From the IMG/VR virus record IMGVR_UViG_3300037119_006958, positions 1 to 44,788 of that record: DNA of 44,788 nt. One strand, 5' to 3'. Source of the stretch: a virus. The first letter of the stretch is position 1. Each line of letters begins with the position of its first letter. Positions 6,699 through 22,011 of the stretch are shown here, in pieces. Made by a program: the position numbers and the translations under genes. The notes below the pieces were generated by a model that saw nothing but the letters and a program-made list of their open reading frames with translations, ran no database searches and was not told where the DNA came from.

Positions 6699-7211
6699 AT
6701 GGATTCCACCAACTCGATCGTGCCCGTCGAGCGCACCTGGGAACAGGCGAAGGCGAGCGCGATCAGCCCCGGCGGGAAGTTCAACGAGAAGCGCCGCGCG
6801 ATCTACCTGGAGGAGCGCCGGCAGGGGACGCCGCACCTCACCGCGCTACGGCGGGCCGACATCTCGCCTAGCACGCATGATCGCTACTCGGCTGCGATCG
6901 GCCAGCAATGGAAGAACACCGTCCGGTATGCGGTCGAGGAGGGCCTCGACCCGATCAGGGCGGTGCGTCGGGCTGCTGCCCTAGAGGGCGAGCCGTGGGC
7001 GGTGCGTGCGGAAATCGGCGACGGTCGCGCCGCTAGTGGCGGTGCGTCCGGCGGTGAGGGCCCCGCAGGGTCGACCACCGTGAACATTGGCGCCGTCGTC
7101 GTGGGCGGCGAGGCGGGGGTCGCCGGCGCGCTCCACGGGATTCTCGACCGATTGCGGGAGCGGGAGCGTGCGATAGCAGGAGGCGACGGGAGCGAGCACG
7201 AGAGCGCATAA
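6699..7211 (+). CDS. HTH protein: regulator or small terminase-like
   Basis: A 170-residue protein (MDSTNSIVPVERTWEQAKAS). Residues ~28-65 (EKRRAIYLEERRQGTPHLTA followed by LRRADISPSTHDRY) look like a helix-turn-helix of the type found in small terminase subunits and phage regulators; a Gly/Ala linker and a short C-terminal helix follow. It diverges from the D5-type operon, which favours a regulator, but small terminases have the same build. The last ~20 codons (RERERAIAGGDGSEHESA) lie inside the word-iterated zone, so the 3' end appears overrun by that repeat vocabulary. Confidence 0.65.
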   Translation: MDSTNSIVPVERTWEQAKASAISPGGKFNEKRRAIYLEERRQGTPHLTALRRADISPSTHDRYSAAIGQQWKNTVRYAVEEGLDPIRAVRRAAALEGEPWAVRAEIGDGRAASGGASGGEGPAGSTTVNIGAVVVGGEAGVAGALHGILDRLRERERAIAGGDGSEHESA

Positions 7212-7217
7212 CGCAAA

Positions 7218-7246
7218 CGAGGCGACCGCTCGTGCTGGTCGCCTCG
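7218..7246. repeat. Dispersed repeat hairpin, copy 1
   Basis: Stem CGAGGCGACC/GGTCGCCTCG (10 bp) with loop GCTCGTGCT, just after the HTH gene stop. The identical loop and inner 9-bp stem recur at 9027-9057. On the minus strand it is followed by TTTGCGTT, so it could terminate leftward transcripts. Confidence 0.7.
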
Positions 7247-7283
7247 TGCGCTCGTGCGCTCGCCTCGTGCTCGCTGGTCGATA

Positions 7284-7293
7284 CCGCCGGCGG
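7284..7293. repeat. CCGCCGGCGG iterated palindrome, first of nine
   Basis: Exact copies start at 7284, 7518, 8365, 8382, 8470, 8593, 8833, 9490 and 9653, in genes and in spacers, often extended to ACCGCCGGCGGT or CCCGCCGGCGGG. Confidence 0.85.
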
Positions 7294-7557
7294 GAGCTGC
7301 GCAGCTCGTGCGCTAGCTCGTGCTGGTCGCCTCGCTCGCTGGTCACGAAATCACACTAGTGGAATTCGACCGCTCGTGCTCCCGCTCGTGAGCGGTCGCC
7401 TCGTGAGAGCGTGCTAAATCGACGCCTAAGCTCGTGCGAGGGAGGGAGGCGGTAGGTAGGTGCGGGAGGATGGGAGGCGAGCGCAGCGGTCGATTTCTCG
7501 CCTCGCTCCCGTCGCGACCGCCGGCGGAAATGTGCGCGAGCTTGAGCGGGAAACGAA

Positions 7558-7585
7558 AGAGGCGACCGCCTAGGCGGTCGCCTCT
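7558..7585 (-). terminator. 28-bp perfect palindrome, leftward terminator
   Basis: AGAGGCGACCGCC followed by its mirror (centre CCTAGG) forms a perfect 28-bp palindrome. Minus-strand continuation is TTCGTTTCCC. It lies ~43 nt after the stop of the gene at 7628 and fits a rho-independent terminator for the leftward genes of this zone. Confidence 0.6.
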
Positions 7586-7627
7586 CGTGCTCGCTCTCGT
7601 GCGCAGCTCGTGCGCTCTCGCTGGTCG

Positions 7628-8293
7628 CTAGAAATCCTCCGTTCCGTCGGATAGGTGCGCAGCGGGAGCGGGAGCGGGAGTGTTAGCTCGCTGCGCTATG
7701 TGCGCAGCACGTAGGTTCCCGCTCGCTTTCCCGTCTAGCTCCCGTCGATGCGCTAGCCAGCAAATAGCTTGCAATTGCTGCGGGAGGATTCCCGCTCGCC
7801 TCGCCTCGCTGCGGTAGATAGAGGCGACCAGCGCATAGGTTCCCGCTCGCTCTAGCCATTTATCGGATGGCGAGCGACCGCCTATCCCGTGGAGAGCTAT
7901 GGCTACAGCATGGCGGTCGACCGTTACCGCTCCCGCTCGTGAGGGATAGAGGATGTTTCGATAGAACGAGCGCACCTTTCGACCGCCTAGCACGAGCGAG
8001 GGAGGCGAACCCTCAAGAATGGCTAGCGCTTTCGATATCCCGTCGCCTAGCGCACCTATGCTCTGCGCTTCCTCGTGCGAGCGGGAGGCGACCAGCGAGC
8101 GAGCTGCGGAAATGTTCGCTAGCCATCCGATTTGAGGCGAGAGCGCAGCGATTACCGCAGCTCCCGTACTCACTCCCTCGCCTAGCTCGCTCGCTAGCTC
8201 GTGCGCTACGGGATACCAACCCATCCCGCTCGTGCGCTCGCTCTCGTGAGCGAGGCGGTAGCACGTGCGCACGTTCTCACGCAGCACGCTCAC
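7628..8293 (-). CDS. DUF7178-type actinophage protein
   Basis: The segment SGMGWYPVAHELASELGEGV, then AAVIAALSPQIGWLANISAA, LGGRKVRSFYRNIL, AVTVDRHAVAIALHG and the closing LQAICWLAHRRE match a protein family I know from many actinophages (believed DUF7178, unknown function; the order loosely recalls helix-hairpin-helix glycosylases with a catalytic-type Asp in VDRHA, which is speculation). The frame stays open to a TTG at 8452, but upstream residues are repeat-derived; GTG at 8293 (VSVLRENVRTCYRLA) fits the family N-terminus better. Start uncertain. The gene is written in the local repeat vocabulary. Confidence 0.62.
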   Translation of the reverse strand: MSVLRENVRTCYRLAHESERTSGMGWYPVAHELASELGEGVSTGAAVIAALSPQIGWLANISAARSLVASRSHEEAQSIGALGDGISKALAILEGSPPSLVLGGRKVRSFYRNILYPSRAGAVTVDRHAVAIALHGIGGRSPSDKWLERAGTYALVASIYRSEARRAGILPQQLQAICWLAHRRELDGKASGNLRAAHIAQRANTPAPAPAAHLSDGTEDF

Positions 8294-8423
8294 GGGATAC
8301 GTGCGCAGCTCTCGTGCGATGCTCGCACGTATGGCGGTTTGCCTAGCTCGCCTCCCGCTACCTACCGCCGGCGGGAGGAAACCGCCGGCGGGAGGAAGCG
8401 AGCGCAGCTCTCGTGCTCGCTGG

Positions 8424-8951
8424 TCAGTAGGCACTAGCGAGCACGTTCTCAAGCGAGCGAGCGTAGATACCGCCGGCGGTCGCCTCTATGCGCTCGCCTC
8501 CACCGTAGGTGAGGGAAATCGCATCCTGGAAATACCAGCGAGCGAGAATGGCGAGCGTGCGCTCAAGCTCCCGCCTCGTGAGCGAGCACGTACCGCCGGC
8601 GGTAAAGGTTTCCTCGCTCCCGTGTTCCTCGCTGGTCGAAATCCCGCCATCCACCCGGAAATCAAGCGAGGCGAACAAGTCGACCGTATCCCGCTTGAAT
8701 TCCTCCCATTCCGAAAGCGGAAGGTCGCGACCGCTCGTGCTCTCGATATTGCGACCGATCGAAACGATCACCCATCCCGCCTCGCTCGTGCTGGTCTCGT
8801 GCTCGCTGGTCTCGCTGGTCTCGCTCGTGCTCCCGCCGGCGGGAACGAATCCGCCTAGCTCGTGCGAGAAACGGAACGCTGCGGACGGTCGGCAGATTTC
8901 GCCCGGATATCCCTTGTGGGCGGGACGGTCGGAAATCGGATTCGTAGGCAT
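8424..8951 (-). CDS. Hypothetical protein with TSE-rich insert (175 aa)
   Basis: MPTNPISDRPAHKGYPGEIC starts at an ATG with GAAAGAGG 7 nt upstream. Residues ~40-60 are a low-complexity run (TSETSETSEHETSTSEAG) produced by the zone's GACCAGCGAG and GCACGAG words; elsewhere TAGG and PAGG mark copies of the CCGCCGGCGG palindrome. Between them are ordinary helical segments (LPLSEWEEFKRDTVDLFASL and RRELERTLAILARWYFQDAI), which argue that this is a real gene that tolerates the inserted words. No family recognised. Confidence 0.58.
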   Translation of the reverse strand: MPTNPISDRPAHKGYPGEICRPSAAFRFSHELGGFVPAGGSTSETSETSEHETSTSEAGWVIVSIGRNIESTSGRDLPLSEWEEFKRDTVDLFASLDFRVDGGISTSEEHGSEETFTAGGTCSLTRRELERTLAILARWYFQDAISLTYGGGERIEATAGGIYARSLENVLASAY

Positions 8952-8973
8952 TGCTCGCCTCTTTCGTAGGTGT

Positions 8974-8988
8974 GAGGGAATTTCCCTC
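8974..8988. repeat. GAGGGAA-T-TTCCCTC inverted repeat, copy 1
   Basis: 7-bp arms around a single T, 22 nt upstream of the ATG at 8951. A second copy with 9-bp arms is at 9408-9426. Both precede minus-strand starts, so they may be operators or leader structures. Confidence 0.55.
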
Positions 8989-9026
8989 GCTCGTGCTCTG
9001 CGCTCTCGTGCGCAGCTCACGAGCGA

Positions 9027-9057
9027 GGGAGGCGACCGCTCGTGCTGGTCGCCTCCC
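9027..9057. repeat. Dispersed repeat hairpin, copy 2
   Basis: Stem GGGAGGCGACC/GGTCGCCTCCC (11 bp) with the same 9-nt loop GCTCGTGCT as at 7218-7246. It lies in the spacer upstream of the gene at 8951. Confidence 0.7.
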
Positions 9058-9061
9058 GTCG

Positions 9062-9244
9062 CTAGCTCTCGCCTCGCTGGTCTCCCGCTCGCCTCCCTAG
9101 CGACCATCGACGGTCGATGCTCTCGCTACGTGCGCTCGCTCGCCTCCCGTCGCTAGCTCTGCGGGAGGCTACGTAGCCTCGCCTACGGTCGGTTAGGTAC
9201 GTGCGAGCGAGCTGCGTGCGCTCGCTCTCGCTCGTGCTGGTCAC
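9062..9244 (-). CDS. Doubtful small ORF (60 aa)
   Basis: A GTG at 9244 overlaps the TGA of the 47-residue ORF (GTGA) and has AGGCGGGAAA in front, both typical of genuine starts here. The product (VTSTSESERTQLARTYLTDR and on) is mostly Arg, Ser, Asp and Gly from the repeat words, so it could be translated repeat rather than a selected protein. No motif. Listed only because of the coupling signal. Confidence 0.25.
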   Translation of the reverse strand: MTSTSESERTQLARTYLTDRRRGYVASRRASDGRRASARSESIDRRWSLGRRAGDQRGES

Positions 9245-9384
9245 TTTCCCGCCTCCCTCGTGCTCGCCTCAATCATCGACCAGCGAGCGAAATCCTGCCT
9301 ACGTTGCCACGCAGCTCGTGCGCTCGCCTCGTGCTCCCGTAGGCGGTCGCCTCGCTGCGCATCCCGCAGAGTGTCAAATCGCAT
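9241..9384 (-). CDS. Small basic ORF (47 aa)
   Basis: ATG at 9384, product MRFDTLRDAQRGDRLREHEA continuing to RRQDFARWSMIEASTREAGK. GGGAGCGAGAGCT lies directly upstream. It is helical, highly charged, and partly repeat-derived. Flanked upstream by the second GAGGGAA inverted repeat and followed by a GTGA overlap. No known family; coding status uncertain. Confidence 0.4.
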   Translation of the reverse strand: MRFDTLRDAQRGDRLREHEASARAAWQRRQDFARWSMIEASTREAGK

Positions 9385-9407
9385 AGCTCTCGCTCCCGTG
9401 CTCTCGT

Positions 9408-9426
9408 GCGAGGGAATTTCCCTCGC
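9408..9426. repeat. GAGGGAA-T-TTCCCTC inverted repeat, copy 2
   Basis: GCGAGGGAA-T-TTCCCTCGC, 9-bp arms, 24 nt upstream of the ATG at 9384. It shares the 15-nt core with 8974-8988. Confidence 0.55.
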
Positions 9427-9463
9427 TCGCTCGCCTCCCGTGGGCAGGGAGGAAAGCGAGCGA

Positions 9464-9491
9464 GGGAGGCGAGCACGTGCGCTCGCCTCCC
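9464..9491. repeat. Hairpin repeat GGGAGGCGAG/CTCGCCTCCC
   Basis: 10-bp stem with loop CACGTGCG, built from the same words as the other hairpins, in the spacer after the gene at 9504. Confidence 0.6.
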
Positions 9492-9503
9492 GCCGGCGGT
9501 CGC

Positions 9504-10034
9504 CTAGTTGTCTGCGTACCATTCCGTCGCGACCGCTACCGCCATCGGAACGCTTGAGTAGCTCTCGCTGTAGGTGTGCGACTCCCGCAGCTCTCGCACG
9601 TAGTGAGGAAGCTCACGAGCGAGGAATACCTCACCCGTAGACGGGACCCATACCGCCGGCGGAACGAGGAAGCTCTCTAGAACGATCCCGCAGCTCTCGC
9701 ACGTGCGCTCGCCTCGCTCGCCTCGCTCGCTCTCGTTCTCGTGCTCGCACGTGCGAGGCGAGAAATCCCGCAGCGAGCCGACGGGAGGGAGACCGTCGGC
9801 GGATAGGTGCGAGGCGAAACCGCCGAAAGCGTGCCTACCGTCGATGCTCACGTAATAGCTAGGCGTGCATTCCGTCCCGTCGGGACGGGTGAGCTGCGTG
9901 GTCACGATTTCGACCAGCACGGGACCGATCACCCAGACTCCCGCCTCGTTCGTTCCCGTGCTGCGTGCTGTCCAGAGCGTGCGAGTGAGTAGCTCGCTCG
10001 TTCCTCGTTCGCTGGTCTCGTGGGTCGCATCCAT
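9504..10034 (-). CDS. Hypothetical protein, first gene of the repeat zone (176 aa)
   Basis: MDATHETSERGTSELLTRTL starts at an ATG with GAGGAACGAG upstream. Non-repeat parts look like a folded beta-rich protein (TGTNEAGVWVIGPVLVEIVT and PSYYVSIDGRHAFGGFASHL, plus a C-terminal PMAVAVATEWYADN). A Cys-rich stretch (TCEHENESERGERGERTCES then CG) could be a zinc knuckle but is largely spelled by repeat words. Function unknown. Farthest upstream of the leftward genes in the zone; no clear promoter seen. Confidence 0.55.
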   Translation of the reverse strand: MDATHETSERGTSELLTRTLWTARSTGTNEAGVWVIGPVLVEIVTTQLTRPDGTECTPSYYVSIDGRHAFGGFASHLSADGLPPVGSLRDFSPRTCEHENESERGERGERTCESCGIVLESFLVPPAVWVPSTGEVFLARELPHYVRELRESHTYSESYSSVPMAVAVATEWYADN

Positions 10035-10609
10035 GTTCGCTCTCGTTCCTCGTGCGTCGGTTTCCTGTCGGGTGACACGTGCTCATCGGACCGAAATTCT
10101 GTCAAGAGGGAAATCTCAAATAACGCTGTGACCAGCGGAAATACAGCGATGTAGTTCGGCGGATTTCGCGACACTCTGTGCCGAAATCCCCTAGGTGGTC
10201 GCGAGCTGCGGTAGGCGCGACCGCCTCGCCTCCCTCCCTCCCGCAGCGGTATCGCGCTCCCGCCTCGCCTCCCGCCTCCCTCGTGCTCGCTACCGCAGCT
10301 CGCATATCGGGACGGGAGGCGACCGCCTCGCACGTGCGACGGGAGGGAGGGAGGCGGGAGCTATGCAACGTGATGCATAGGTATGCGCTCGCCTCGCCTC
10401 CCTCCCTCGCTGGTCACGTGTTACAGCACGTCATATGAAACGGTTACAGTTCGATGTCATTGAATCAATGGTTGTTCACAATTGGGGACAACTTTCGAGG
10501 CGGGGGGCGGGGCGGGGGGCACACCCCCTTCGTGGCGGGCCCGCGCGCCCTAAGTTGGCGTCCACCGGTGCTACGAAATTTCGAGCTGTAACCCGCGTAC
10601 ACTGGCCCC
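10035..10609. other. Gene-less spacer before the virion region
   Basis: No supported gene in ~575 nt. To about 10430 it continues the repeat words. Beyond that it is ordinary sequence with an ACGTG-N6-CACGT repeat (10416-10431), GTTGT/ACAAC arms (10471-10492), a G5-CACA-C5 hairpin (10515-10528) and the palindrome CGAAATTTCG (10574-10583), which ends 14 nt before the first late -10 hexamer and so lies in the -35 area. Confidence 0.6.
10598..10603 (+). promoter_or_regulatory. First late -10 hexamer, TACACT
   Basis: TACACT, 6 nt, ATG at 10610. The palindrome CGAAATTTCG lies in the -35 area. Probable start of the rightward virion transcript. Confidence 0.6.
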
Positions 10610-21177: not shown

Positions 21178-22011
21178 GTGACCATGACCGAGCCGGCAGG
21201 CGATGCCGGCGCCACCGAGAGCAGCAACGTGCTCGACTGGCCCGACGCCAGTGACATCGGCGACGAGGTGTTCGAGGAGACCACCGAGACCGAAACCGCT
21301 GACGAGCCCGCCGAGGAGACCAGCGAGGAGGCTCCCGCCGAGGAGACCACCGAGGAGCCGGCCGAGGAGGCCGCGCCCCCCGTCGAGACCTTCGATCGCG
21401 AGTACGTCGAGAAGCTCCGCAGCGAGGCTGCCGAGCACCGGGTCCGGGCCAAGGAGGCCAACGAGGCGTTCGAGGGGTTCGATGAGCCCACCCGCGCGGA
21501 ATTCCTCGACATGGCCCGCGGGCTCAACGACCCCGACCGCCACGTCGAGGTCGCGCAGAAGTTCTACGACGTCGCCAAGCGGGTCTTCGACCACTACGGC
21601 ATCGAGACCCCCGAGATGGTCCCCGACCCGAACCGGCCGCTGACCCCCAAGCAGCTTGAAGACCGCCTCCAGCAGGAGCGCGAGGAGCGCGACCTGGCCG
21701 AGCAGACGAGAATCCTCGACGCCGAAATCAAGTCCCTCGGCTACGAGACCGGCACCCCCGACCACTTCGCGCTCATGCGCATGGCGTGGGCCCGTGAGGA
21801 CGGCTCCATCCAGGAGGCCCACAAGGCCGTCGAGGCGTGGAAGAAGGGCATCATCACCGAGTGGGCTAAGCACTTCCAGGAGAAGCAGGACCGCCACCTC
21901 GACACCGCCCCGCAGGTCGGGCTCGCCCCGGCCGAGGCGCCGGCCGAGGACCCCACCACCTTCGAGGGTGCGCGCGAGCGCATGAACCAGATGTTCAAGG
22001 ACCAGGCGTAG
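21178..22011 (+). CDS. Scaffold protein
   Basis: A 277-residue, strongly acidic protein. Residues ~25-75 are a Glu/Thr/Pro-rich disordered stretch (ETADEPAEETSEEAPAEETT), then long helices (REYVEKLRSEAAEHRVRAKE and KQLEDRLQQEREERDLAEQT). The position between portal and capsid, high acid content and coiled-coil nature are those of tailed-phage scaffolds that direct prohead assembly and are then removed. GTG start with AAGGAG 6 nt upstream. A terminator hairpin follows. Confidence 0.8.
   Translation: MTMTEPAGDAGATESSNVLDWPDASDIGDEVFEETTETETADEPAEETSEEAPAEETTEEPAEEAAPPVETFDREYVEKLRSEAAEHRVRAKEANEAFEGFDEPTRAEFLDMARGLNDPDRHVEVAQKFYDVAKRVFDHYGIETPEMVPDPNRPLTPKQLEDRLQQEREERDLAEQTRILDAEIKSLGYETGTPDHFALMRMAWAREDGSIQEAHKAVEAWKKGIITEWAKHFQEKQDRHLDTAPQVGLAPAEAPAEDPTTFEGARERMNQMFKDQA

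Follow-up and report, generated by a model that had tools for sequence, protein, structure and literature searches.

How do unrelated genes, and the spacers between them, come to be written in the same few short words? This question is raised by one locus of a viral genome, IMG/VR record IMGVR_UViG_3300037119_006958, of which positions 1 to 44,788 were analysed as one strand of that full length (the window). An earlier note, made from the letters alone, had described a zone at 7160-10430 with sharp boundaries, in which several interlocking words recur across genes and spacers and in both orientations; it had regarded the zone as neither tandem repeat, clustered regularly interspaced short palindromic repeats (CRISPR) nor transposon, and as not explicable by codon choice. 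The coordinates and the description hold, and the checks that the note had proposed (k-mer statistics, comparison of close relatives, search of other phage genomes) came out in favour of it. Beyond the note, we show here that each lineage has its own vocabulary at homologous genes, and that cultured phages carry such zones at their right genome ends. The feature in question is the following.

7160-10425, no strand: vocabulary zone of 3.3 kb, genes and spacers made from a small common word set, defined by k-mer complexity, Markov and synonymous-shuffle tests and by its edges.

Per kilobase, the zone contains 548-600 distinct canonical 7-mers where the rest of the window has 744-880, and as a whole it contains 1278 distinct 7-mers where an order-3 Markov chain trained on the same sequence predicts 1553, a ratio of 0.82 that sets it apart from ten control segments (0.96-1.00). 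Words that had been named from the sequence are enriched, GAGGCGA occurring 41 times where about 1.5 occurrences are expected and CTCGTGC 34 times against 2.8; CTCGCTC is found 31 times against 1.3, and GGCC, expected 40 times, is absent. At the left edge, word recurrence rises from 0.6-3.5 (7060-7140) to 9.9-14.9 (7180-7260), within the last approximately 50 bp of the gene ending at 7211, and at the right edge it drops from 11.3 to 0.5 at about 10420. Recurrence is equal in intergenic and genic sequence (5.4 and 5.8, with 2.1 in the control), and the words are found in each of the three frames and in either orientation, though with a bias towards the coding strand (GCACGAG, 32:2). Long direct repeats are also in excess, with 37 18-mers where an order-5 Markov chain trained on zone sequence gives 13. 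Only minor tandem fragments were reported in the zone by Tandem Repeats Finder, regular repeat units of the tandem or CRISPR kind were not found, and a search of the zone DNA against 50,697 phage records gave no match.

Codon usage does not explain the zone, because shuffles that preserve both protein and codon usage lose its words. In these synonymous shuffles the codons were permuted within each gene and the 9-mers common with the rest of the zone were counted. The main gene of the zone, which encodes a DUF7178 protein, has 310 of its 817 9-mers in common with the rest of the zone, against 51 plus or minus 12 in shuffles (z = 22), and the other two window-zone genes tested gave z = 12-20 (17-20 for the long open reading frame (ORF) 8424-9107), with 3.4 for TerL. 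Across the zones described below, z was mostly 7-22. Composition was rejected as a cause after the excess had been tested against Markov orders 1-5.

Comparison with close relatives located the zone in a near-identical strain (G001) and, with different words, in a second contig, G002, which encodes a TerL 72% identical to that of the window and aligns with it at 68-84% over most of the genome and little within the zone. The syntenic G002 zone encodes homologous proteins (52-56% identical) and is k-mer poor too, but its words are others, including GGCCG, CCACCAC and GCCGGCGCC. The top words are nearly exclusive, with AGCGAG counted 57 times in the window zone and 0 times in that of G002, and CGGCCG 83 times in G002 and 0 times in the window; the G002 DUF7178 gene has a synonymous-shuffle z of 10-13. 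In a distant DUF7178 phage, G003 (G+C content of the locus retrieved, 54%), the words of the zone include CGGCCCG, GCAGGCC and CAACGC. The dip in complexity in G003 is partly a 36-bp array, and L109 8574-8899, adjoining the G003 vocabulary zone, consists of 18/36-bp units inside a plus-strand ORF. Within the second zone, at L015 5466-5842, overlapping ORFs encode stretches of at least ten Thr or His residues, owing to GTG-repeat arrays. A dip in L113, a phage contig of 37% G+C with a DUF7178 gene, was rejected as a zone, being a plain 6-bp tandem array (45 copies of the G+C-rich unit GGTCGC at 7767-8036).

A search of other phage genomes detected comparable zones, again with different words, in cultured phages of Rhodococcus equi. 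In Madraxi, Jflix2 and Shagrat the zones occupy the right-terminal 3-4 kb, Madraxi and Jflix2 having one common dialect and Shagrat another, and their DUF7178 genes give z = 9-10 (8-mers), with about 0-2 for neighbouring genes outside the zone. The Apiary group, also R. equi phages, has a right-terminal zone of 8.5 kb (gene z 7-19), and the Gordonia phage NatB6, of the same cluster, a weaker one. Dialects differ between phages that share the host R. equi NRRL B-16538. For Jflix2, Shagrat and Apiary, 3' cohesive-end (cos) overhangs have been published, with coverage of 1,635-4,019x (PMC10868187); because of these ends and a coverage above 1,600x, their zones represent true physical right termini rather than errors of assembly. 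An assembly artefact, which the earlier note had named as a possible refutation, is excluded by these phages and by the second contig, G001. Several cluster A mycobacteriophages have only a short low-complexity non-coding tip; in Timshel, Sheen and Herbertwm (L017 1-420, L134 9600-10000, L135 9700-9950) this right tip spans a few hundred bases, and its words differ between phages. Many cultured actinophages carry the DUF7178 gene close to the right end, on the minus strand. In the window, the zone is probably the right terminus as well, since synteny, a conserved non-coding block at 10496-10592 that adjoins the zone on its right, and the rightward structural genes that begin after this block all point to it; the block is a putative cos or packaging (pac) region.

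Dialect similarity tracks phylogeny, vocabularies diverging as relatedness declines. The correlation of 5-mer enrichment with Apiary is 0.98 for Braxoaddie, 0.91 for GuyFagieri and 0.68 for NatB6, and about 0.37-0.72 across lineages; a motif common to all lineages was not found. Among five near-identical R. equi phages compared over their right 8.5 kb (L133, L139, L142, L143, L144), nine of the ten pairs have a zone whose divergence exceeds that of the remaining genome by a factor of 3 to 42, for instance 6.95% against 0.17% between Maselop and CoffeeBean. This divergence forms a mosaic, with some blocks close to 0% and others reaching 15%, from which it follows that a few divergent alleles are being shuffled. 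At sites differing at two or more bases, the alternative string was sought elsewhere in the zone of the other phage, and was present there more often than expected (46 against 8.3 for 14-mers and 15 against 1.4 for 16-mers), with no excess in the same test outside the zone; alleles thus differ mostly by the replacement of one zone word by another. Windows that have changed recur a little less often than those that have not.

At the finest scale, G001 carries the same zone as the window and differs from it, over an alignment of 36.3 kb, by 15 substitutions and one 18-bp insertion or deletion. All 15 substitutions are inside the zone, which makes up 9% of the alignment, and none are outside; they form three patches.

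7730-7766, no strand: seven substitutions, all synonymous.
8024-8045, no strand: five substitutions, all synonymous.
10149-10178, no strand: three non-coding substitutions.

All 12 coding substitutions are in the DUF7178 gene, and in the third patch G001 can be read as having the zone word CTCGCT and a new 10-bp palindrome. The adenine-biased substitutions expected of a diversity-generating retroelement target were not seen, as the 15 differences are of mixed types and the coding ones synonymous; a reverse transcriptase was not searched for. G001 comes perhaps from a related sample and so represents a second assembly, but maybe not a distant one. The sole insertion or deletion, at window 21285-21302 on the edge of a repeat-rich coding stretch, is probably due to replication slippage.

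To account for these zones we favour, tentatively and at somewhat less than an even chance, a process of recombination and template switching close to the DNA end, which would reshuffle alleles and at the same time make short words uniform through ectopic micro-conversion. The zone, as the right-terminal segment of the virion genome (so placed in the cultured relatives and probably in the window), would evolve as a recombination-driven, self-homogenising locus. Co-infecting phages would swap short tracts in the zone far more than elsewhere, as seen in one cultured group, and such allelic exchange would give rise to mosaics and is the likely cause of the three patches between the window and G001. 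Where strand annealing or template switching took place at a short ectopic match instead of at the allelic partner, a few bases would be overwritten by another word of the zone; over time the same words would fill synonymous sites, spacers and tolerant protein loops, and from different starting words each lineage would drift to its own dialect. Confinement of the effect to the terminal kilobases would follow from a free DNA end that is resected and prone to recombine, either at injection or in recombination-dependent replication. In support of this process we count the right-terminal position in cultured phages with published cos ends, the confinement of all 15 strain differences to the zone, in patches, the raised mosaic divergence of the zone among the five close phages, the allele strings present elsewhere in the zone, the agreement of dialect with phylogeny, the excess of long direct repeats, the Sak4-like annealing protein and exonuclease encoded by the window phage, and the template-switch homogenisation of coding DNA documented elsewhere (PMC8604942). 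Of the causes considered in the earlier note, template switching or recombination is the best fit, though by inference, and restriction avoidance fails a palindrome test described below.

Several observations weigh against this explanation. Ectopic copying was not seen directly, the allele-string data being consistent with it, and word sharing within the zone is nearly independent of distance; in the window zone, 9-mers at 8-20 bp spacing are 2.3-4.4 times as frequent as expected and otherwise near uniform. At both coding patches the G001 state is less vocabulary-like than that of the window. The pair Maselop-Polyyuki shows no excess of divergence in the zone, the Apiary-GuyFagieri rates are equal, and the Madraxi-Jflix2 zone has no excess of synonymous divergence, a result that also contradicts simple hypermutation. 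As to position, the window contigs themselves show no ends, and zones were not found in lambda, BabyRay, Streptomyces phages and other phages with right-end DUF7178 genes.

The main rival, which we consider possible but unlikely, is selection for the words themselves: terminal DNA or RNA would have to carry or lack many short motifs, for example for binding of the end by a phage or host protein or for escape from nucleic-acid-guided immunity, with a different recogniser in each lineage. Selection of this kind would suit the near loss of some 4-mers over the 8.5 kb of the Apiary zone (CCAG 3 against 143 expected, CTTC 3 against 110), the shift in amino-acid composition in the same zone (Lys 0.8% against 4.9%), the coding-strand bias of the words, and the fit of changed synonymous codons to the vocabulary in both alleles. 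However, the words are many and wholly different between homologous zones, none being common to all lineages; palindromes are not avoided, and the long-repeat excess exceeds the word content. RNA structure, rejected as a general cause, is in excess in only two of six zones (A, that of the window, and B). A common nuclease or protospacer-adjacent motif was likewise discarded, as the joint depletion of CTTC, CCAG, AAGG, AGGA and GCCC resembles loss of host-preferred codons.

A mutational equilibrium, in which an error-prone polymerase acting with strong context dependence on single-stranded terminal DNA produces low-entropy sequence, seems improbable to us. Short contexts are symmetrically enriched or depleted and local to the end, and order-4 Markov chains account for most of the shortage of distinct 7-mers, as this idea would predict; but the long repeats go beyond Markov order 5, the strain substitutions are of mixed types, synonymous divergence between Madraxi and Jflix2 is not raised, and phages of the single host NRRL B-16538 have different dialects. 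Avoidance of restriction sites in the first-entering DNA, whereby the removal of many systems' sites would leave few usable words, accords with the terminal position and with the complete loss of GGCC from the window zone, yet it is very unlikely: six-base palindromes are at 0.61-0.74 of expectation in the rest of the genomes and at 0.90-1.26 in zones A, B, D and E, those of G003 are at 0.41 in the rest and less depleted in its zone C (0.55), and GGCC is the top word in the sister phage. Ordinary causes (codon or compositional bias, paralogous genes, microsatellites, assembly error) can be given next to no credence. It is true that the zone and the structural genes differ in codon usage, that real microsatellites occur in the non-coding ends of both Madraxi and Jflix2, and that two or three Apiary zone proteins are weakly similar to each other. 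For the window, G002, Jflix2, Shagrat and Apiary, however, such causes are refuted by the shuffles, the Markov controls, the absence of paralogous genes from the window zone, the second contig, the cultured-phage coverage and the equal recurrence in spacers and genes.

The genes and elements in and beside the window zone, which holds at least four minus-strand ORFs, are as follows.

6699-7211, plus strand: conserved 170-residue gene with a 67% identical homologue in L015; its last approximately 50 bp lie inside the zone.
7219-7245, no strand: 27-bp hairpin-forming direct repeat, copy 1.
7558-7585, no strand: 28-bp perfect palindrome of zone words, a possible terminator.
7628-8452, minus strand: DUF7178 (phrog_3842) gene in zone words, start codon uncertain (Pfam PF23802, E 8.3e-45).
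8424-8951, minus strand: small gene, in which zone words spell out an insertion rich in Ser, Glu and Thr (SETSETSEHETSTSE); ORF 8424-9107 with an internal ATG.
9029-9055, no strand: copy 2 of the 27-bp repeat.
9241-9522, minus strand: short ORF with an AWQRRQDFARW motif, found by eye also in L015 5657-5842.
9504-10034, minus strand: 176-residue gene with a 52% identical L015 homologue; a zinc-ribbon match is weak and below cut-off.
10496-10592, no strand: G+C-rich non-coding block directly outside the zone, highly conserved (84% to G002), candidate cos/pac region.

By sequence impression, the product of the first gene is probably a terminase small subunit, the protein having no match in Pfam or PHROG. 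Membership of DUF7178 is indicated by 153.5 bits against a curated cut-off of 27 and by a phrog_3842 match of 4.9e-45, and the L015 homologue is 56% identical; a DUF7178 search of genome contigs gave no match. An ORF related by eye to 8424-8951 is present at L015 4948-5463. DUF7178 was dismissed as the cause of the zones, given that most DUF7178 phages examined lack one and that the Apiary zone proteins searched gave matches to other families or to none.

Among known phenomena, the nearest kinds are cryptic simplicity and template-switch homogenisation, and there is a fair chance that the zone is categorically new. Cryptic simplicity, reportedly described by Tautz and colleagues in 1986, is said to consist of scrambled short motifs, and the zone likewise overuses interlocking short motifs above composition, without tandem order and in coding and non-coding DNA alike. 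Unlike cryptic simplicity, it is confined to one end of a phage genome, lineage-specific, extreme in conserved coding sequence, present in both orientations and coupled to allele mosaicism, with motif sharing apparently zone-wide more than local, whereas slippage would be expected to cluster like motifs locally. HIP1 of cyanobacteria, DNA uptake sequences and Chi are short words over-represented in genes and spacers, each a single genome-wide motif, whereas the zone has many words in one local stretch and its relatives use different ones. The earlier likening to iterated palindromes (HIP1, REP) did not survive, as the words are mostly non-palindromic, restricted to the zone and without a motif common to lineages. 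Actinophages have repeated short sequences known as stoperators. Their other repeats include the start-associated sequences of cluster K and the 17-bp repeats of cluster O, which become more frequent towards the right end of the genome and lie in part within genes (PMC4351075). All of these are one site-like motif each that leaves surrounding codons unaltered, while the zone rewrites codons. Template-switch or quasipalindrome mutagenesis would homogenise short similar sequences through multi-base changes, genes included (PMC8604942), but it is known as sporadic events between nearby inverted repeats, and here a whole multi-gene region is rewritten and direct repeats dominate. No description of lineage-specific terminal dialects was found in the literature searched, including two papers on these phages (PMC10868187, PMC13313380), although with incomplete coverage this is weak evidence of absence.

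We therefore raise, as a possibility rather than a probability, that terminal dialect zones are an undescribed class of actinophage region, in which a DNA-level process keeps rewriting genes and non-coding DNA with a small set of words, heritable and particular to each lineage, that dictates codons and amino acids, and which is also a hypervariable locus shuffled by recombination. Codon choice is usually read as a matter of translation or composition; here the codons of conserved unrelated genes, and partly their amino acids, are dictated by words common to the spacers. Host prediction and binning based on k-mers, as well as gene finding, can be misled at phage ends. The zones provide a compact system, isolated laboratory phages included, for studying how template switching and recombination could create a sequence vocabulary, and they may account for a class of genome ends that is hypervariable and rich in orphans.

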